Below are positions 8,493-38,530 of a stretch of DNA of 64,000 nt, piece after piece. Source of the DNA: Thermodesulfobium sp. 4217-1. GTDB lineage: Bacteria > Thermodesulfobiota > Thermodesulfobiia > Thermodesulfobiales > Thermodesulfobiaceae. The DNA lies in the NCBI RefSeq assembly GCF_039822205.1, contig NZ_JBAGBW010000010.1, positions 7,742 to 71,741 of the forward strand. The letters run 5' to 3'. Below the pieces are notes generated by a model, which did no database searches, was not told where the DNA came from, and saw nothing but the letters and a program-made list of their open reading frames with translations. The stretch's first letter is position 1. Each line of letters starts with the position of its first letter. A program made the translations under genes and the position numbers.

Positions 8493-9236
8493 TTAACGAG
8501 TAAGTTTTAAGACCTTTTTCTGAATAGCAATTATCTGTTCTATACCACTGTGGCCAATATAGAGTATTTCATTTAATTTTTCCCGAGAAAATGGCTTTTT
8601 CTCAGCAGTTCCCTGTATTTCTATTATCTCATTATTTTCATTTGCAATGATATTAAGATCCACATCAGCAACCACATCTTCTTCAAAGTTTGGATCTAAT
8701 ATAACCTCGTCATTCAAAACTGCAACCGATACCGCTGCTACATAATATTTTAAAGGACTAACTTTTATCAATCCGTACTCTTTCAGCTTCCTCAAAGCAA
8801 GCACCAATGCCACAAATCCACCAGTAATGCTCGCACATCTTGTTCCTGCATCAGCTTGAATTACTTCTGAATCAATATATATTGTTCTTTCGCCAAGAAG
8901 GCTCATATCCACAGCACTTCTTAATGACCTTCCTATAATTCTTTGAATTTCTTGATTCCTTCCAGAAACCCTGCCTGAGGTGCTCTCTCTTACATTCCTA
9001 TCCTGAGTCGCACGCGGTATCATACTGTATTCGCTAGTAATCCATCCATTGCCAGAACCTTTTAAAAAGGGGGGTACCCTGTCCTCTACTGAAGCGTTAC
9101 ATATTACCTTTGTGTTACCAAAAGAAATTAACGCGCTCCCTTCAGGGTAAAGTAAAAAATTTTTTGTAATTTCAATAGATCTTAATTCATCATTTTTTCT
9201 GGATTTATCAAGTCTGATTGTTAACACCTCTCTCAA
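8493..9236 (-). CDS. rph: Ribonuclease PH
   Basis: Phosphorolytic 3'-5' exonuclease that trims tRNA 3' ends. 247 residues, the normal length. The N-terminal arm has GNTKVICNASVE and TSEYSMIPRAT; the central signature SGRNQEIQRIIGRSLRSAVD is followed by IDSEVIQADAGTRCASITG with the phosphate-binding residues. The ATG overlaps the stop of the recombinase gene by four bases, a coupling arrangement repeated often in this window. Confidence 0.97.
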   Translation of the reverse strand: MREVLTIRLDKSRKNDELRSIEITKNFLLYPEGSALISFGNTKVICNASVEDRVPPFLKGSGNGWITSEYSMIPRATQDRNVRESTSGRVSGRNQEIQRIIGRSLRSAVDMSLLGERTIYIDSEVIQADAGTRCASITGGFVALVLALRKLKEYGLIKVSPLKYYVAAVSVAVLNDEVILDPNFEEDVVADVDLNIIANENNEIIEIQGTAEKKPFSREKLNEILYIGHSGIEQIIAIQKKVLKLTR

Positions 9237-27941: not shown

Positions 27942-28703
27942 CTAACCTCCAGAATACAATTCTTTTAATATTTCTGCCTTTGCTTGGCCAAAAGCAGCCT
28001 TTTCATGCTTATCCAAGTTCTTACCCAGAATCAAATAAGGTTTTGATTCTACTGCCTTCTTAAAAGATTCTTTTAACTGCCAAAATCTAATATTTTCATG
28101 ATGTCCGCTTAATAAAACATCAGGTACTGCTTCACCAAATATTTCTCTTGGTTTTGTATAATTTGGAGATTCCAATAAACAATTTGAAATTGAATCTTCC
28201 ATTATACATTCTTCATTACCAATAAAACCAGGAATCAGTCTTAATAAACCGTCCAACAAAACCAATGTCGCAACTTCACCAGAATTCAAAACATAATCGC
28301 CAATTGAGATTTCTTCAATCTTTTTTACTTTAAATATTCTCTCATCGACACCTTTATAGTGTCCACATAGAAAACATATTTTATCAAATTTCTCAGAAAT
28401 TTCAAAAAGTTTCTTTTGCTTTAGAACGCTTCCTCTCGGAGACGGATAGAAAAAAACAACTCCAGGACAAAGCTTATCAACGAAATTCATAGCGTCAATT
28501 AAGGGTTGAGCTTGCAAAACCAAACCCGAAGAGCCTCCAAACGGATAATCGTCTACTTTTTTAAACTTACTCTTGGTAAAATCCCTGATATTTATAATTT
28601 TTACATCGAAAAGCTGCTTATCTAATCCCTTTTCTGCAAGACTAGTTGAAAAATAATTACTAAATATTTCAGGAAAAAGAGTTAAGATATAAAAAGATCT
28701 CAA
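27942..28703 (-). CDS. trmD: tRNA (guanine-N1)-methyltransferase
   Basis: Methylates G37 of tRNAs to prevent frameshifts. 253 residues with the SPOUT trefoil-knot motifs [51 protein letters not shown] and the C-terminal [16 protein letters not shown]. RimM, which normally lies just upstream, is absent here: only ten bases separate it from khpA. Confidence 0.97.
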
Positions 28704-28713
28704 ATTATATTTC

Positions 28714-28959
28714 TCAGGTTTGAGTTGATTGTTCTTTAATCTCTAAGAAATAATTTATACCCTTTTGCTTTCCCAATGCCTTTAATATCTGTCTAATAGA
28801 GCTAATTATGTGTCCATGTTTTCCGATTACTCTTCCTACATCCTCAGTTTTTACAAAAACTTCATAAAAAACGTCATTGCCTTCTACAGATTCATTAATT
28901 ACTACATCAGCAGGATTGCTTACTAGATTTTTAATAAGGACTTCGAGAAAGTCTGTCAA
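28714..28959 (-). CDS. khpA: KH-domain RNA-binding protein KhpA
   Basis: 81 residues forming one KH domain. The G-x-x-G loop is VIGKHGHIISSI near residues 39-50, followed by QILKALGKQKGI. KhpA partners KhpB in RNA binding and control of cell elongation. It follows rpsP by one base, the usual place. Confidence 0.93.
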   Translation of the reverse strand: MTDFLEVLIKNLVSNPADVVINESVEGNDVFYEVFVKTEDVGRVIGKHGHIISSIRQILKALGKQKGINYFLEIKEQSTQT

Positions 28960-28960
28960 A

Positions 28961-29206
28961 TTACCCTACAGAGTTTACATATTTTGAAAAAAGTTTTCCT
29001 ACTGTTTCTGATGGCTTGGCTCCCTTTGCAATATAACTATTGTATTTTTCTACATCAATTTTTACTATTGCCTTTTCTGGTAATGGATTGTAAAAGCCTA
29101 ACACCTCCTGAGTCTTACCATTTAATGGATCCTTTGCCTCAGCAACCACTATTCGATATGATGGTTGGTTCTTTGCACCTACACGTTGAAGACGAATTCT
29201 AACCAC
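28961..29206 (-). CDS. rpsP: Ribosomal protein S16
   Basis: 81 residues, normal for S16: VRIRLQRVGAKNQPSYRIVVAEA, then the helix VLGFYNPLPEK and GAKPSETVGKLFS. It begins the conserved rpsP-khpA-(rimM)-trmD-rplS cluster and lies 26 bases after ffh. Confidence 0.97.
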   Translation of the reverse strand: MVRIRLQRVGAKNQPSYRIVVAEAKDPLNGKTQEVLGFYNPLPEKAIVKIDVEKYNSYIAKGAKPSETVGKLFSKYVNSVG

Positions 29207-29232
29207 TAATAATCCTCCTAAAATTATATATT

Positions 29233-30546
29233 TTAAATTCTTCCTACTGGAAAGTTTGGTAATTTCATTCCCTTTTTCAAATTCTTTGATTTAAACATCT
29301 TTTTAAACATTTCATATTGTTTCAAAAGCTGATTTACCTCTTGAATTGTCGTACCGGACCCTTTTGAGATCCTCCTTTTTCTACTAGCATCTATTATTTC
29401 AGGCTTCTTTCTTTCTTTTGCAGTCATAGAGAGCATCACCGCTTCGATCCTTTTCATCTGTTTTTCATCTGGTACCATATCTTTCATCTGTTTAATATTT
29501 GAAAAACCAGGAATCATTGATAAAAGATCTTCCAAAGGACCCATTTTTCTAACTTGACGTAAACTATCTAAAAATGTATCGAAGTTCCACTTTTCGATTT
29601 CCTGAGGCGGTTTTTTGTTTACATCAATTTTAATGTCTGACACTTTTTCCATAAGACCTTCGATGTCGCCCATACCAATAATTCGATTTACTACCCTGGT
29701 AGGATCAAATTTCTCTAAGTTCTGGATTTTCTCACCTATGCCCAAGAAAACCAAGGGCACGCCAGTAACTTCTCTTAGAGAAAATGCGGCTCCACCTCTT
29801 GCATCACCATCAAACTTTGTCAGAATAGCACCCGTCAAAGGTATGGTCTCAAAAAAAGATTTTGCAACCTTTGTAGCTTCTTGACCCATCATTGAGTCTA
29901 TTACTAAGATATTGTTCTTTGGCTGAAATCTATCGTTTAATAATTTTAGCTCATTGAGAAGCTCCTCATCAACATGGGTACGACCAGCGGTATCTATTAT
30001 TACCAAGTCGTTTCCGTTGGTCTTTGCAAGTTTCAATGCACCCTCAAAAGCCAAAAAAGGATCTTTGTCAGTAAAAAATGGCACCTTAATAGACTGTGCA
30101 AGTTTTTCTAATTGTAGCTGCGCAGCAGGTCTTCTAACGTCAGCCCCTACAAGTATCGGCCTTTTGTTCTCTTTTGTAGCAAAGTAATTCGCAATCTTGG
30201 CAGAAGTGGTAGTTTTACCGCTTCCCTGGATGCCCACCATCATTATGACGGAAGGCTTATCAGAAAAGTCAATATTGCCAGGTTTTCCAAGTAAATTGAC
30301 CAGTTCTTCTCTAACCACGTTTGAAACCAATGTGCCAGGTGAGGTTTCAGTAGTAAATTCTAAACCGTTTAAACGGGTCTTTATCTCTTCAACAATTTTT
30401 TTTGCGGCAGATAAGGCAATGTCAGATTCAAGGAATACAAGTCTTATATCACGGCATATTTCGTTAATTTCTTTATCAGTTAGTTTGCCATAACCTCTAA
30501 ATTTTCTAAAAAGCCCTTGAATCTTCTCACTGAAGTCAGAAAGCAT
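29233..30546 (-). CDS. ffh: Signal recognition particle protein Ffh
   Basis: 437 residues. The N-domain, then the GTPase with GIQGSGKTTTSAKIA (G1), VDGADVRRPAAQLQLE-type DVRRPAA, IIDTAGRTHVDEEL (G3) and TKFDGDARGGAA (G4), and a Met-rich M domain with GSGTTIQEVNQLLKQYEMF that binds 4.5S RNA. It begins one base after ftsY ends, so both SRP partners are coexpressed. Confidence 0.97.
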   Translation of the reverse strand: MLSDFSEKIQGLFRKFRGYGKLTDKEINEICRDIRLVFLESDIALSAAKKIVEEIKTRLNGLEFTTETSPGTLVSNVVREELVNLLGKPGNIDFSDKPSVIMMVGIQGSGKTTTSAKIANYFATKENKRPILVGADVRRPAAQLQLEKLAQSIKVPFFTDKDPFLAFEGALKLAKTNGNDLVIIDTAGRTHVDEELLNELKLLNDRFQPKNNILVIDSMMGQEATKVAKSFFETIPLTGAILTKFDGDARGGAAFSLREVTGVPLVFLGIGEKIQNLEKFDPTRVVNRIIGMGDIEGLMEKVSDIKIDVNKKPPQEIEKWNFDTFLDSLRQVRKMGPLEDLLSMIPGFSNIKQMKDMVPDEKQMKRIEAVMLSMTAKERKKPEIIDASRKRRISKGSGTTIQEVNQLLKQYEMFKKMFKSKNLKKGMKLPNFPVGRI

Positions 30547-30547
30547 T

Positions 30548-31423
30548 TTACGGGATCAACCCTTCAGCATATTGAGTCTTATCAAAAGGCACTAAGTCTT
30601 CAATGCCCTCTCCTACGCCTATAAATTTAACAGGAATATTAAATTTTTTTGAAATATTCAATACATAACCACCTTTTGCAGAACTATCTAATTTTGTAAG
30701 TATAATACCAGTTACCTTCAAAGACTGTCCGAATACCTCAGCCTGTTTTACAGCATTATATCCTGTAGAAGCATCCAAAACCAAAAGAACTTCGGAGGGC
30801 TCACCTTCAATCTCTTTTCCTATTACCCTTTCAATCTTTTTAAGCTCTTCCATTAAATTATCTTTAGTATGAAGTCTGCCAGCAGTATCTATAATAATAG
30901 GGCTCTTCTTCCTACCCTTACTAGCCTTTAGACCATCAAATACTACTGCTGCGGGGTCTGAGTTTTCTTTTTGGGAAATTACATCTAAGTTCAATCTCTC
31001 GCCCCAAATTTTCAACTGGTCAATTGCGGCAGCCCTGAAAGTATCGGCAGCCACAAGTATAGGACTTGCATTAAATTCTTCAATAGAGTATTTTGCAAGT
31101 TTAGCACAAGTAGTAGTTTTCCCACTACCATTTACACCTATTAGAAGCCATACGCATGGACGCTCTTCTGTAAAAAAGAGCTGTGGCTTCCCCTCAGGCA
31201 GAAAATCTTCTATAGCATCTTTCAAAGCAATCTCAATAGGAGCAGCATTGAGCCATCTTTTCTTAGCATCTTTAACAATCTCAGTTGCCACATCAGAGCC
31301 AACATCTACGAGTAGGAATTTTTCCAATATTTCATCCCAATCAATGTTTTCCATGCCAACAACAGAGCTAAAAACCCTTCTTGTTCTAGTAAGTGCTTCT
31401 TTAACCTTGTCAAATAGGAACAA
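30548..31423 (-). CDS. ftsY: Signal recognition particle receptor FtsY
   Basis: 291 residues; the NG core only, without a long acidic A domain. GTPase motifs are GVNGSGKTTTCAKLA, DTFRAAAIDQLKIWGE, IIDTAGRLHTKDNLMEELKK and TKLDSSAKGG. It docks Ffh-ribosome complexes at the membrane. It is the first gene of the minus-strand run that continues at least to dprA; the 266-base gap upstream should hold its promoter. Confidence 0.96.
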   Translation of the reverse strand: MFLFDKVKEALTRTRRVFSSVVGMENIDWDEILEKFLLVDVGSDVATEIVKDAKKRWLNAAPIEIALKDAIEDFLPEGKPQLFFTEERPCVWLLIGVNGSGKTTTCAKLAKYSIEEFNASPILVAADTFRAAAIDQLKIWGERLNLDVISQKENSDPAAVVFDGLKASKGRKKSPIIIDTAGRLHTKDNLMEELKKIERVIGKEIEGEPSEVLLVLDASTGYNAVKQAEVFGQSLKVTGIILTKLDSSAKGGYVLNISKKFNIPVKFIGVGEGIEDLVPFDKTQYAEGLIP

Positions 31424-31919: not shown

Positions 31920-32102
31920 TTAATCCTTAAATTCTATGGCACCCATTGGACAGATCAACTCACAAACTTTGCATTTGACACATTTATCGTGATCAAAAAA
32001 AACCTTAAAATTTAATAATTTAATAGCATTAACAGGGCACAACAAAACACAGGCTTCACAACCAACACAAATATATGCTTTAAAATCAAACTTAATACTC
32101 AA
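31920..32102 (-). CDS. Short 2[4Fe-4S] ferredoxin-like protein
   Basis: 60 residues with two Cys motifs: YICVGCEACVLLCPVNA and DKCVKCKVCELICPMGA. Eight cysteines are spaced for two cubane clusters. It faces the smc gene across a 70-base divergent region and is probably cotranscribed with the following ferredoxin gene. Confidence 0.92.
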   Translation of the reverse strand: MSIKFDFKAYICVGCEACVLLCPVNAIKLLNFKVFFDHDKCVKCKVCELICPMGAIEFKD

Positions 32103-32161
32103 ATATATACCTCATTTATATGTTATCATTATATTTCATTATATCAAAACATATAATTTTC

Positions 32162-32166
32162 GGAGG
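32162..32166 (+). promoter_or_regulatory. Ribosome-binding site that fixes the smc start
   Basis: A perfect GGAGG six bases before ATT 32173. It defines the non-standard start of smc, since the frame has no ATG, GTG or TTG until codon 62. Confidence 0.8.
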
Positions 32167-32172
32167 AAAAAG

Positions 32173-35100
32173 ATTTATCTTCAGAATTTAAAAATATTTG
32201 GTTTCAAAAGCTTTTACAGAGAGTTTATATTTGAATTTGACAAAAACCTAAATATTATAGTTGGACCAAATGGTTCTGGAAAAAGCAATATAGGTGAGAG
32301 CATAAAATGGGCTCTTGGTGGAAAGATTTCTTCTATCAGAGCGGATTCTTCTTTAGAATTGTTGTTTTCTGGATTCAAAAATATTAAACCAGTAAACTAT
32401 TGTGAAGTTGAGATTGGCTTCATTAATGAGTTCGAAACGACAAATTCTGAAACTATCGTTAAAAGGTCTATGTCCAGGGGAGGAAATAATACATACTTCA
32501 TAAATGGAAAAGAAGTCCAAAGAAAGAACATGATAAACGCCCTAAGACCATTTGGACTAGGTGCAACTTTGTTTCTAATTATAGATCAAGGAACAGTAGA
32601 TAAAATTTTGGATTTAGATCCAAACCAGCTTTGTCAAATATTCTTAGAGTCTTTAGGCTATGGTAACTATAAAGCAGAAAAAGTCGATCTTGAATCAAAG
32701 ATTTTAGAAAAAGAAGAACAAATAGAAAGATTTCAAACAGAATTAAGAAAAAATAGATCCAGATTGGAAGTCCTATACAACGATTTAAAAATATATGACA
32801 TATACTCCGAAATTTCTAATAAGATCGATATCATTTCTAAAGAGATAGTAATAAGACAGTTTAATAATTTAACTAAGGAAAGATTAATTATAGAAAAAGA
32901 GCAATTCGATATTGAAAAAGAGCTAAAACAGATCGCGGAGCACAAAAAAGCTCGTGAAAGTAAATATATTGAAATTAAAGATAAGATTAATGCTCTTGAA
33001 GGAGAGCTAACTACAAAAAATATTATTTTAGAAAAAGTAAACAGTGAGATTCATGAGCATGAAATATCCCTTGAAAGGTTAGAAGGCCAATTTACACTTT
33101 ATGAATCAAAATTAAACACAAATAAAAGTGCATTAAATTCCAAAAAGGATGAGATTGAGCTTACAAACTTAGAAAATCAGAATAATATAAAAAAATTAGA
33201 TAATTTAAAGAGTTCACTACCAGATTCTCTTATAGAAAGGGATCCAAAAGAGCTTTTAAGTTTGCTCAACTATTATGAAAAAAATATTGTTGAAAATGAA
33301 AAAAATAATCTTTTATTAAAAGAGCTGGAGTCAAAGGAAAAGTCTTTAAATTATTTTAACTCAGAGCTTAATTTAAATAAAAACTCTTTAGCTGATATTT
33401 CATTTAAATTAAACGAGAGTCAAAAAGAGCTTAAAAATATGGAAGAAAAATTCAATAATAATATTTTGAAAATCCAAAATATAAGTAAAACATTTGAAAA
33501 AGATCAAATATTAAATGAGAAGAGAAAAAATGAGAACAAAGAACTTCTTGGCTACTTAACCACAAAAGTAGATGGAATTTTAGGTTATATAGAAGATCTA
33601 TATGATACCGATGAAAGATATAAGACAGCGGTAAGCGTGTCGCTCGGAAGTTATCAAAGATCCTTAGTTTTACAAAACAAAAAAGATCTCAGTAGCCTAA
33701 AGCACTTCTTAAAAAAGATTAACAAGATGATTAATGTTTTCGTATTAGATCTGCTGCCGACTTTCAAGCACCAAGTTCTTACAGAAGATATTTTACAGAA
33801 AAACCGCTCTCAATACTTGATAAGTCTTATTACTTTCGACAAAAAACTATCAATTCTTTTTAACAACCTTCTTGGCAATACCCTTTTGTTGAATTCGTTT
33901 GATGATGCGATTAAGTTAAGAGAGAATGAATCATTGTGGAAATACAGACTGGTAACCCTTGAAGGTGAAATCTTCTCATCAAATGGACAGATACAAATCG
34001 GCGACAAAACAGCAAAGAATTCAATTAGCACAAGCGAATACAATGATTTAAAGGCTATCACAGAAGGATTACATAATAGGATTCAAGAGCAAAAAGAGAT
34101 TACCCATAGCCTGATCCTTGAACAAAATTCACTTAATGCCCAGATTAAAATTATTTTACGTGAGAGAGAAAGAATTGAAAATGAACTTGTATCTATAAAA
34201 TCTAAATTATCAAAAACAAAGAATTTTTCCGATGATGCATTCTACCAATCTGGGGAAGTTTCTGATAATTTAAGAGAAAATGTCCAACTTATTTTTGAAA
34301 TAAACACCATAAATGAGAGCATTTTGAACTACCAGAACAGAATTCTTAAATTAAATAAAGATCTGGAAGTCCTGGAATCTGAAGTAATAGAAATTAATGA
34401 TAAAATAGATAAAATCAAAATAGAGCTAACGGTAATAAAGGATAATATACGATCATCTTTAAATAGAAAAAGCATCCTTGAAACAGAAATAAAAAAATTA
34501 AAAGATAATCTGCAAAGATACAAAGAAGTAAGCATTTTATTGGACTCAAATAAGTCGACCGAAAAAGAATCGGAAGTTTTAAAGTTATCTTATGAAATAA
34601 AAAATAAAAAGGATTTATTAGAAAGAAATTTATCCGAATTAATAAGCAATAATGATTTTCTAAATAGTTTTGTTGATAAAAAATTAGAAATAGAAGGAAA
34701 CAAGACTTATAGAAATCATGCAATTCAAGAGCTTCAGAGTAACTTTAACAATCTTTTGAAACAAAAAAACGACTTGGGACCGATTAATTTTAAGGCTAAA
34801 GAAAGCTATAATCAGTTAAAGGATGAAATTATCGAGCAAGAGTCAAAGATAAAAAGCATACAAGACATCCTAAAGGAATCAAATTTAGCACTCAAATCGT
34901 TAGACTATCACGTAAATTGTGAAGTTATAAACTCTGTACAGAAAATAAACGAAAAGTTGGGCACATATTTCAATGAAATTTTTAATGGGAGCGCTTCACT
35001 AATACCGACTAAAAGCCCCATTACGAATGGAATAACTTTAGAAGTGAAGCTGCCAGGAAGAAGATTTCTAAACTTAGGCATGCTTTCTGGCGGAGAGCGA

Positions 35101-35355
35101 GCTATGATATCGATTTTACTTTATGTGGCACTGATGGAGAACAACCAGACACCATTTTGTTATTTTGATGAAGTAGATGCTTCATTAGATGAAGCAAACC
35201 TTGTAAGATTTATAAATTTGCTCCATATTTTGAAAAAGAGTAAACAACTGATCGTAGTTACACATCAGCGTCTTACAATGGAAGCGGCAGACAATTTGAT
35301 TGGCATTTCCAAAAACCAGGAGGGAGAAATAAACTGTATAACGACAAAGAGATAG
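32173..35355 (+). CDS. smc: Chromosome segregation protein SMC, probable ATT start
   Basis: 1060 residues. Reading from ATT 32173 gives YLQNLKIFGFKSF, exactly where SMC proteins begin, then Walker A GPNGSGKS at residues 31-38. A long coiled coil follows, a hinge near the middle (LGYLTTKVDGILGYIEDLY), a second coiled coil, the signature MLSGGERAMISILLYVAL and Walker B FCYFDEVDASLDEAN. The chain is shorter than the ~1180 usual for SMC. In frame, no ATG, GTG or TTG occurs before 32356, and starting there would remove the Walker A. The SD at 32162-32166 supports ATT. A sequence error is the alternative explanation. Confidence 0.9.
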   Translation: MYLQNLKIFGFKSFYREFIFEFDKNLNIIVGPNGSGKSNIGESIKWALGGKISSIRADSSLELLFSGFKNIKPVNYCEVEIGFINEFETTNSETIVKRSMSRGGNNTYFINGKEVQRKNMINALRPFGLGATLFLIIDQGTVDKILDLDPNQLCQIFLESLGYGNYKAEKVDLESKILEKEEQIERFQTELRKNRSRLEVLYNDLKIYDIYSEISNKIDIISKEIVIRQFNNLTKERLIIEKEQFDIEKELKQIAEHKKARESKYIEIKDKINALEGELTTKNIILEKVNSEIHEHEISLERLEGQFTLYESKLNTNKSALNSKKDEIELTNLENQNNIKKLDNLKSSLPDSLIERDPKELLSLLNYYEKNIVENEKNNLLLKELESKEKSLNYFNSELNLNKNSLADISFKLNESQKELKNMEEKFNNNILKIQNISKTFEKDQILNEKRKNENKELLGYLTTKVDGILGYIEDLYDTDERYKTAVSVSLGSYQRSLVLQNKKDLSSLKHFLKKINKMINVFVLDLLPTFKHQVLTEDILQKNRSQYLISLITFDKKLSILFNNLLGNTLLLNSFDDAIKLRENESLWKYRLVTLEGEIFSSNGQIQIGDKTAKNSISTSEYNDLKAITEGLHNRIQEQKEITHSLILEQNSLNAQIKIILRERERIENELVSIKSKLSKTKNFSDDAFYQSGEVSDNLRENVQLIFEINTINESILNYQNRILKLNKDLEVLESEVIEINDKIDKIKIELTVIKDNIRSSLNRKSILETEIKKLKDNLQRYKEVSILLDSNKSTEKESEVLKLSYEIKNKKDLLERNLSELISNNDFLNSFVDKKLEIEGNKTYRNHAIQELQSNFNNLLKQKNDLGPINFKAKESYNQLKDEIIEQESKIKSIQDILKESNLALKSLDYHVNCEVINSVQKINEKLGTYFNEIFNGSASLIPTKSPITNGITLEVKLPGRRFLNLGMLSGGERAMISILLYVALMENNQTPFCYFDEVDASLDEANLVRFINLLHILKKSKQLIVVTHQRLTMEAADNLIGISKNQEGEINCITTKR
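35318..35326 (+). promoter_or_regulatory. Ribosome-binding site for the polyprenyl synthase gene
   Basis: AGGAGGGAG inside the 3' end of smc. Its distal GGAG lies seven bases before CTG 35334, the best available start of the next gene. Confidence 0.6.
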
Positions 35356-36191
35356 AAAAAATTTATCAAAAACAAATTAGTTATGTAGAAAAAATTTTAA
35401 ACACTTTTGTTTACAATTTAGATAACATATCGGAGCAAGCAAAAGAATTCATAGTATACAGCATTGCAAGTGGCGGAAAGAGAATAAGACCTATTTTTCT
35501 AATTAATGTTCTGTCAAATTACAATTATGAAACCATAGCTGGTCTTAGTGAGGCTGTTTTATCATTGGAGTTAATGCACTGCGCCTCTCTGATACACGAT
35601 GATCTGCCTGCCATTGACAATGATGATTTTAGACGTGGCAAGTTAACTTTACATAAAAAATATGGCGAGGGTGAAGCAATCTTGACTGGAGATGCGTTAC
35701 AAATAATGTCATTTGATATATTATCTAATATATCAAATAAGGAAATTGCTATAGAGTTGGTTAAGGTATTATCGTCGAAATCTGGTATCAGAGGTATGAT
35801 TGGCGGACAAATTTTAGATATATCAAAAATTGAAAATTTTGAACAAATGTACAATATAATGATCCTTAAAACAGCAGCCTTATTTGAAGCGAGCCTTATG
35901 ATGGGAGGCATCATTGGAAAACTTTCAGATAATCAGATAAAAAGTTTAGAAAATTTTGGAAGAGATGTAGGCTTGCTTTTCCAGATATTGGACGACGAAA
36001 AAGACTTAGAAAGCGATCAGGGCGCAAACATATTTAAATATGCCACCAGGAATGATATAGAAAATTTAAAAATAAAGCTTATTGAATCTATAATATTATG
36101 TATGAATAAAAATTTTGATGATAGGTTCTTTGATAGATTCAAATGGTTGTTTGTAAATAAATTAGGTTTTAGTGGAGATATATTTGGATGA
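35334..36191 (+). CDS. ispA: Polyprenyl (geranyl/farnesyl) diphosphate synthase, probable CTG start
   Basis: About 285 residues. Motifs: GGKRIRP at 47-53 (pyrophosphate binding), the first Asp-rich motif HDDLPAIDNDD near 88-98, and the second, QILDDEKDLESD. The first standard start in frame is TTG 35565, which would lose GGKRIRP; between the smc stop region and it there is no ATG/GTG/TTG. CTG 35334 behind AGGAGGGAG is the best start and overlaps smc by 22 bases. It condenses IPP with allylic diphosphates for quinones or undecaprenyl; dxs follows closely. Confidence 0.9.
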   Translation: MYNDKEIEKIYQKQISYVEKILNTFVYNLDNISEQAKEFIVYSIASGGKRIRPIFLINVLSNYNYETIAGLSEAVLSLELMHCASLIHDDLPAIDNDDFRRGKLTLHKKYGEGEAILTGDALQIMSFDILSNISNKEIAIELVKVLSSKSGIRGMIGGQILDISKIENFEQMYNIMILKTAALFEASLMMGGIIGKLSDNQIKSLENFGRDVGLLFQILDDEKDLESDQGANIFKYATRNDIENLKIKLIESIILCMNKNFDDRFFDRFKWLFVNKLGFSGDIFG

Positions 36192-36624
36192 ATTTTTATC
36201 AAACAAATTAATATGGATACCATTTACAGCTAGCCTTTTAGCTCAAGTTCTTAAGATGTTCTATTATTGGAAGAAGAACCACAAAGTAAATCTTAGACAT
36301 CTTACAGAGGCTGGAGGGATGCCATCCTCTCACAGCGCACTTGTAAGCTCTCTGGCTACAGTTATAGGCATAAAAGAAGGCTTAGATAGCTCATTATTTG
36401 CAATAAGTATTATTTTTGCTTTCATAGTAATGTATGATGCTGCAGGAGTAAGGCAGGCAGCAGGAAAACAGGCAAAGGTCTTAAACAAAATAATAAACGA
36501 GCTCAGTCATAAATATTATTTTAGAGAAGAACATCTTAGAGAACTTATAGGTCATACCCCAGTTGAAGTTATCGCTGGTTGTTTCTTGGGAATACTTGTT
36601 AGTCTGATATTAATGAAATATTGA
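36184..36624 (+). CDS. DUF212 (divergent PAP2) membrane protein
   Basis: 146 residues from TTG 36184, which has GGAG six bases upstream; GTG 36172 is an alternative. It carries RHLTEAGGMPSSHSALVSSLA, the PAP2-like active-site pattern, and YDAAGVRQAAGKQA, plus about four hydrophobic segments. The family is thought to act as a membrane phosphatase, but function is unproven. Its place between a prenyl synthase and dxs suggests work on prenyl phosphates. Confidence 0.85.
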   Translation: MDEFLSNKLIWIPFTASLLAQVLKMFYYWKKNHKVNLRHLTEAGGMPSSHSALVSSLATVIGIKEGLDSSLFAISIIFAFIVMYDAAGVRQAAGKQAKVLNKIINELSHKYYFREEHLRELIGHTPVEVIAGCFLGILVSLILMKY

Positions 36625-36658: not shown

Positions 36659-38530
36659 TTGGATATTGAGATTTTAAATAAATTAGAAAATCCGAAACAA
36701 ATTGCAAGCTTAAGTATAGATGAAAAGAGAAAATTAGCCAAAGAAATTAGAAAAACAATTATCAAAACTGTCAGCAAAAATGGCGGTCATCTATCTTCAA
36801 ATCTTGGAGTAGTGGAGCTGACTATCGCACTGCTTTCAAAATTAGACCTGACAAAGGACTTTATTGTTTTTGATGTTGGACACCAAATATACCCTTATAA
36901 ATTAATGACCAACAGATTCGAAAGATTTTCAACCCTAAGACAATACAATGGAATAAGCGGCTTTCCAAAAAGAGAAGAGAGTCCTTATGATTTCTTTGGA
37001 ACAGGGCATGCTGGAACTTCTATATCAGCTGGTTTAGGCGCATGTATCGGCAAAGAGATATTAAATAAAGAAGGCAAAGTAGTGGCAGTAATTGGCGATG
37101 GAGCGATGACCTGCGGGATGGCGCTTGAGGCATTCAATTATCTTGGACACACAAAATCAGATCTAACAGTAATATTAAATCATAATGAAATGTCAATCTC
37201 ACCAAATGTGGGCGCACTATCCAAAACCTTATTAGAGCTTAGAACCCACACCTTATATAAAAATTTCAAGTCAACCATAGAAACTCTTAGCAATAGACTG
37301 CCAAACGGAAAAACCTTTTTAGATTTTGCTCTCAGATTTAGGGATGCTTTTAAAGAAGTGCTTATAGGAAAATGCTTTTTCGAAGAGCTCGGCATAAACT
37401 ATTACGGCCCTATTGATGGACATAACATAAATCTTTTAGAGTTTACAATTGAGAGGACTTTGAATCATCCAGGGCCAAAGGTATTACACGTAGTCACTAA
37501 AAAGGGTTATGGATACAAAATGTCAGAAGAAAATCCAACCTTTTTTCACAGTGCTCCAAAATTCGAAATTTCTACTGGAAAACCATTTGAAAAAAAGATA
37601 TCTTTTACAAAAATATTCTCTGACACAATAGTCGAAATAGCCAAAAAGGATAAAAATGTGGTTGCTATCACTGCAGCAATGCCAGATGGCACTGGTTTAA
37701 CAAAATTTGCAAATGAATTCCCAGATAGATTTTTCGATGTTGGCATTGCAGAGCAATTTGCAGCTACCTTTGCAGCGGGCTTGTCTACTCAGGGTTTGAA
37801 ACCAGTTGTAGCAATTTATTCTACTTTTCTACAAAGAGCCTATGATCAGCTAATCCACGACGTGGCACTTCAAAACCTACCGATAACATTTGTTTTAGAC
37901 AGGGCTGGGCTGTGTGGCCCTGACGGACCCACCCATCATGGAGCATTTGATTTATCGTTTTTATTGCCAATACCAAACTTACACATACTTGTGCCATCTG
38001 ATGAAATTGATTTACAAAATATGCTCAACTATTCGGTTAAGTTAAATGCACCTGCAGTCATCAGATATCCAAAGGGAGAGATTGTAGGCAAGAGGCAAAG
38101 TGCCCCATCGAATTTCGATGAGCCTGAATTTATAAATAGAGGAAACAAAATAGCAATTTTAGCAATTGGACCTATTGTATGGAAATGCATCAAAATAATT
38201 GAAGAAAACAATCTGACAAATGAAGTCAGCATAGTCGCTTTTAAGAAAATAAAACCATGGACTGAAAAAACATTTGAGACATTCGAAAAAATATTAAAAT
38301 CACACACAAAAATATTCACCGTAGAAGAGAATTCAGCTATTGGAGGTTTTGGATCGTATTGCCTACTTATGGCCTCAAGATCGGGGCAAGCCGAAAAATT
38401 TTCAGATATTTTGGGATTTCCAGATTACTTTATGCCCCATGGAGATAATAACTCTATAATGAAACAAATAAAAATGAGCGATGATGACATTCTAAAAACT
38501 ATTAATCGTCTCTTAGTCGATCGGACTTAA
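36659..38530 (+). CDS. dxs: 1-Deoxy-D-xylulose-5-phosphate synthase
   Basis: First enzyme of the MEP isoprenoid pathway; uses thiamine diphosphate to join pyruvate and glyceraldehyde 3-phosphate. 623 residues: HLSSNLGVVELTIAL, VFDVGHQIYPYKLM, GDGAMTCGMALEAFN (ThDP motif), YYGPIDGHN, RFFDVGIAEQFAATFAAG and DRAGLCGPDGPTHHG. It starts with TTG behind AAAGGAG. Confidence 0.97.
   Translation: MDIEILNKLENPKQIASLSIDEKRKLAKEIRKTIIKTVSKNGGHLSSNLGVVELTIALLSKLDLTKDFIVFDVGHQIYPYKLMTNRFERFSTLRQYNGISGFPKREESPYDFFGTGHAGTSISAGLGACIGKEILNKEGKVVAVIGDGAMTCGMALEAFNYLGHTKSDLTVILNHNEMSISPNVGALSKTLLELRTHTLYKNFKSTIETLSNRLPNGKTFLDFALRFRDAFKEVLIGKCFFEELGINYYGPIDGHNINLLEFTIERTLNHPGPKVLHVVTKKGYGYKMSEENPTFFHSAPKFEISTGKPFEKKISFTKIFSDTIVEIAKKDKNVVAITAAMPDGTGLTKFANEFPDRFFDVGIAEQFAATFAAGLSTQGLKPVVAIYSTFLQRAYDQLIHDVALQNLPITFVLDRAGLCGPDGPTHHGAFDLSFLLPIPNLHILVPSDEIDLQNMLNYSVKLNAPAVIRYPKGEIVGKRQSAPSNFDEPEFINRGNKIAILAIGPIVWKCIKIIEENNLTNEVSIVAFKKIKPWTEKTFETFEKILKSHTKIFTVEENSAIGGFGSYCLLMASRSGQAEKFSDILGFPDYFMPHGDNNSIMKQIKMSDDDILKTINRLLVDRT

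Follow-up and report, generated by a model that had tools for sequence, protein, structure and literature searches.

A genus-conserved AUU as the probable start codon of smc in Thermodesulfobium, with candidate near-cognate starts elsewhere in the genome

Introduction

At which codon does translation of smc begin in Thermodesulfobium sp. 4217-1? The question arises from a window of 64,000 nucleotides, the whole stretch of DNA that was analysed (contig NZ_JBAGBW010000010.1, positions 7,742 to 71,741 of the forward strand; assembly GCF_039822205.1). The initial annotation, made from the letters alone, had placed the smc start at an ATT and had suggested that SMC levels may be under start-codon control or that translation is low. 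In this study, the locus was compared across four genomes of the genus, and near-cognate starts (ATT, ATA, ATC or CTG) were sought in other genes.

Materials and methods

The genome that contains the window (G000) was compared with three congeners (G001, G002 and G003); the remaining relatives returned share only the rank of domain. Two of the four genus assemblies are single-contig (1,898,865 and 1,774,794 bp).

For the survey of start codons, about 790 kb of G000, the window included, was scanned against the whole of G001 using the stop-to-stop frames of 680 ortholog pairs. Candidates were read by eye for cases where conserved coding begins before any canonical codon, or where a Shine-Dalgarno sequence points solely at a near-cognate codon. 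Several scan settings were used, and the gene list was curated by hand after the output had been viewed.

Results

The stop-to-stop frame of smc extends over 31993-35355, and the first ATG, GTG or TTG within it is TTG 32359-32361 (+), where a mechanical ORF call begins. Reading from ATT 32173-32175 (+) yields YLQNLKIFGFKSF at the N-terminus and a coding sequence of 1060 codons (32173..35355, +) that ends at TAG 35353-35355. In this translation the Walker A motif GPNGSGKS is encoded by 32263-32286 (+), ahead of TTG 32359, and it is lost from calls restricted to ATG, GTG and TTG, as the initial annotation had stated. That annotation was also right that canonical codons are missing in frame until the Walker A has been passed; the position it gave for the first of them, 32356, is off by 3 nt. 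A Shine-Dalgarno sequence, GGAGG, lies at 32162-32166 (+) and is separated from the ATT by the 6-nt spacer AAAAAG.

Homology places the ATT at the beginning of the protein. When the ATT reading is searched against solved structures with phmmer, its residue 2 pairs with residue 2 of Bacillus subtilis Smc (3zgx, 5xg3); the ATT therefore stands where bacterial Smc has Met1. Similarly, residue 2 falls at profile position 1 in the alignment to NCBIfam SMC_prok_B. The match to this profile (E 1.1e-127) scores 427.5 bits, below the curated cut-off of 567 bits. The product carries the Walker A motif, the signature LSGGERA and a Walker B motif (FDEVDASLDEAN), and its head and hinge match PDB Smc structures. 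Homology to solved Smc structures across these two domains identifies it as an SMC, a short (1060 aa) and divergent one.

Related genomes, in which the initial annotation had proposed to look for the ATT, all carry it. The SMC proteins of the three congeners are 97, 65 and 63% identical to that of the window, and in the alignment GGAGG followed by ATT, a one-base variant of ATG, was found in all four genomes, which are closely related and represent only about three independent lineages. ATG, GTG or TTG stands at this position in no lineage of the genus, and no such codon is able to start the conserved coding region of smc. Non-canonical starts are generally rare, which might favor a sequencing or assembly error that converted ATG, GTG or TTG to ATT, a worry behind the resequencing that had been suggested. 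The same codon in four assemblies, two of them single-contig, answers that worry; the error reading was rejected and retains a negligible probability.

The alignment also bears on whether smc starts elsewhere, either at an upstream codon or through a leader ORF that frameshifts into smc. In G000 and G002, no stop interrupts the frame over the 60 codons upstream, and an out-of-frame ATG at 32120 precedes the gene. However, the upstream frame contains no canonical codon, and ATG 32120 has no Shine-Dalgarno sequence. In G003, a 1-nt indel shifts the leader frame relative to smc, and both G001 and G003 have a TAA in frame six codons 5' of the ATT. From this TAA to the ATT, the codons read TTT TGG AGG AGA/AAA AAA ATT; of these, ATT and AGG alone differ from ATG by a single base, and the AGG belongs to the Shine-Dalgarno sequence. 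With the TAA in place, the ATT is the only plausible start in these two genomes. The upstream start and the frameshifting leader were rejected on the basis of the TAA and the indel, and a start elsewhere is considered highly improbable.

The disputed stretch behaves as coding sequence. Over the 67 codons ahead of the first canonical start of G000, the substitutions between G000 and G001 number 5, 4 and 22 at codon positions 1, 2 and 3, and are thus mainly at third positions. Taken together, the ATT and GGAGG in four genomes, the TAA and the substitution pattern leave very little room for an error or for a start upstream or at TTG 32359. Between the same two species, 69% of ordinary aligned ATT isoleucine codons are unchanged, so that identity of ATT with ATT at a single site is weak evidence of selection on the codon itself. 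More weight falls on the fact that all four genomes have kept a non-canonical codon. The comparative evidence indicates that the ATT is probably the genuine start of smc, and the proposal of ATT 32173 with GGAGG six bases upstream agrees with the sequence, the homology register and the conservation.

The region upstream of smc is conserved as well. An intergenic block at 32100..32166, between smc and a divergent ferredoxin-like gene, is near-identical in the four genomes and contains the Shine-Dalgarno sequences of both genes. Between G000 and G001, the 70 nt 5' of the ATT are 97% identical. Among 248 intergenic upstream regions, for which the median is 76%, this is one of the five highest values, although SMC itself belongs to the least conserved 4.5% of 692 orthologues by protein identity. 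Such conservation would fit control specific to SMC, in which the AUU and the conserved block would tie the amount of SMC to IF3 or to the capacity for initiation, much as infC controls itself. The neighboring gene, a small 4Fe-4S ferredoxin-like gene at 31920..32102 (-), has a TTG start with its own GAGG; its ferredoxin-type matches in NCBIfam are all below cut-off. The start signals of this gene lie in the block too and could account for the conservation of the block, which is therefore not assignable to smc alone. The RNA folding of the smc start region, a further point against SMC-specific control, was unremarkable (z 0.83). A sigma-70 scan reported no convincing smc promoter; it was silent on a TATAAT at 32152-32157 that was spotted by eye. 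Inverted arms of 8 bp (TATATGTT/AACATATA) were also seen by eye within the block.

Downstream, ispA (farnesyl diphosphate synthase family; 35334..36191, +) overlaps the 3' end of smc by 22 nt and has a probable CTG start with the Shine-Dalgarno sequence AGGAGG at 35318-35323. Its frame contains no ATG, GTG or TTG until 35565, and the CTG is also found in G001; the NCBIfam FPPsyn match (E 3e-63) is below cut-off. Further along, dxs possibly starts at TTG 36659 or at an adjacent ATT (window 36659-36667, +); G001 has ATG aligned to this ATT. On the other side, a run of trmD, a KH-protein gene, rpsP, ffh and ftsY, named by eye from their translations, occupies 27942-31423 (-). It points away from smc, and two small ferredoxin-like genes separate the two. 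This arrangement differs from the rnc-smc-ftsY gene order of B. subtilis.

Smc is one of several genes with such starts. Canonical starts with Shine-Dalgarno sequences in both G000 and G001 comprised ATG (238), TTG (96) and GTG (47). Near-cognate starts in both genomes were accepted for 13 of the 680 pairs, smc included, or about 1.9%, a figure that is an estimate and not a test because curation followed inspection of the scan output. Besides smc, ATT was accepted for ispE and a GNAT gene. ATA was accepted for infC (codon at 36466 of G000 contig C16, -; GGAGGTGA upstream), a MscS-like channel, an ABC exporter and a small membrane ORF, in which it lies one codon past a stop in both genomes. The gene for RNase PH, rph (8493..9218, -), has a probable ATC in G000 and ATT in G001, where its frame shows no canonical start across 33 columns. 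The remaining genes are lpxC (ATC, weak Shine-Dalgarno sequence), an MFS protein (ATT/ATA), and ispA, a HIT protein and rsmI (all CTG, the last with a weak Shine-Dalgarno sequence). In four of these (lpxC, the MFS protein, rsmI and ispA), it is clearer that a suitable canonical codon is lacking than which near-cognate codon takes its place.

Upstream in-frame canonical codons are present for the HIT protein and rph in G000, and for the ABC exporter and the MFS protein in G001, in each case lacking a properly placed Shine-Dalgarno sequence. By homology, the registers of rph, rsmI and the HIT protein are consistent with their families. Residue 2 of the infC product aligns to the N-terminus of a solved IF3, which puts the ATA at Met1. 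The start of infC is most likely ATA, with GGAGGTGA ahead of it, in all four genus genomes, and near-cognate infC starts are likely in several other lineages, too. One scan hit, selD (contig C8 of G000, about 52854, +), was set aside as no start anomaly: in both genomes a TGA interrupts its frame where selenocysteine would be expected, which suggests a selenoprotein. Other matches were alignment artefacts or conserved non-coding DNA, e.g., 5' of leuC.

Features of the translation apparatus were then considered as a source of relaxed starts. The only initiator-type tRNA of G001 is normal, with C1:A72 and GGG/CCC in its anticodon stem, and an abnormal initiator tRNA was rejected on this basis. 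IF3 is encoded in all four genus genomes, by an infC with a probable non-canonical ATA start of its own. At positions known from Escherichia coli, the IF3 residues of the genus vary; most of these positions also vary among 31 IF3s of other lineages, and the inspected residues are mostly within their range. The idea of an impaired IF3 was therefore dropped. A search for the anti-Shine-Dalgarno sequence gave no exact GGATCACCTCC match; 7,500 bases of G001 are masked.

Discussion

The best explanation, with a probability of about 0.9, is that smc is translated from a genuine, genus-conserved, weak AUU, which would give a low rate of SMC synthesis that is sensitive to IF3, within a wider set of genes with near-cognate starts. 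We infer that ribosomes use this AUU. The 30S subunit would be positioned by the GGAGG 6 nt upstream, the initiator tRNA (anticodon CAU) would pair with AUU with a mismatch at the third position, and SMC would begin with formyl-Met, not Ile. Initiation at AUU would be weak and proofread by IF3, so that SMC output would be low and should rise as IF3 activity falls. In Staphylococcus aureus reporters in poor medium, expression from AUU/AUA starts was about 10% of that from AUG (PMC13009471), which makes the proposed low translation of smc reasonable by analogy; ccpN reached up to 30% in rich medium (PMC13009471).

Within this explanation, the AUU may simply be a weak start tolerated by a permissive genus that needs few SMC copies, with no regulatory meaning. 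Near-cognate starts in about 1.9% of the sampled genes are in line with this, as is the variability of the codon in some of them: rph has ATC or ATT, and dxs possibly ATT or ATG, the dxs of G000 also having a usable TTG. Conversely, ATT is kept between species whose SMCs are 63-65% identical, the Shine-Dalgarno sequence is kept with it, and no lineage has ATG, GTG or TTG instead. On the whole, we lean slightly toward the tolerated start. SMC-specific regulation through the AUU is possible, and its odds are somewhat poor. The ATT in four genomes, the conserved block and the action of IF3 on non-canonical starts elsewhere (PMC5472188) speak for it; twelve unrelated genes share the trait, hence smc is not singled out. 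Since other genes of G000 use AUU, AUA, AUC or CUG, the ATT of smc may reflect a general start repertoire and not an SMC control circuit.

Most deserving of follow-up is the apparent reliance of many genes in the genus on near-cognate starts. In E. coli, two genes with non-canonical starts are known. In S. aureus, four non-canonical start sites have been reported (PMC13009471). Given the gene totals of these two species, at least 10 in 680 would be very unlikely under their counts, which come from other methods, and the enrichment in the genus relative to such published counts is a lead only. It is doubtful, though conceivable, that the genus uses AUU, AUA, AUC and CUG far more than model bacteria do (~2% of genes) and that the set is jointly sensitive to IF3, hence to ribosome supply. 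If so, chromosome organisation and isoprenoid and envelope synthesis would be tied to translation capacity through smc, ispE, ispA, rph, lpxC and infC. Judging by the comparative scan, this lineage may have more non-canonical starts than one would expect from the few cases known by experiment, and a pairwise scan of this kind can be applied to any genus with two moderately diverged genomes. In practice, a gene caller limited to ATG, GTG and TTG would strip the ATP-binding motif from the SMC of the genus.

IF3-sensitive non-AUG starts are already known in infC, pcnB and sigR, and smc would be an added case; our literature search returned no paper on non-AUG smc starts in bacteria. Smc would also join the few bacterial genes in which an AUU start is conserved. 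Non-canonical infC starts with translational autoregulation include AUU in E. coli (the ATT was confirmed in the present analysis), AUA in S. aureus and ATC in Streptomyces. Similar to smc, infC has a one-base variant of AUG with a Shine-Dalgarno sequence that is kept across species; however, smc encodes a chromosome protein with no evident autoregulatory loop. The pcnB gene of E. coli is, like smc, an ordinary gene with AUU, and this start limits its translation according to PMC13009471, which cites Binns and Masters (2002); the effect was measured experimentally in pcnB, whereas the case for smc is a comparative one. The S. aureus genes ccpN (AUA) and cvfC1 (AUU) share with smc a conserved non-canonical start with a Shine-Dalgarno sequence, but they belong to another phylum, were found by ribosome profiling and have an extended Shine-Dalgarno sequence, whereas that of smc is a plain GGAGG (PMC13009471). 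Finally, sigR of Streptomyces resembles smc in having a conserved non-canonical start that gene callers misannotate; its codon, however, is GTC, repressed by IF3 as demonstrated genetically (PMC5472188).
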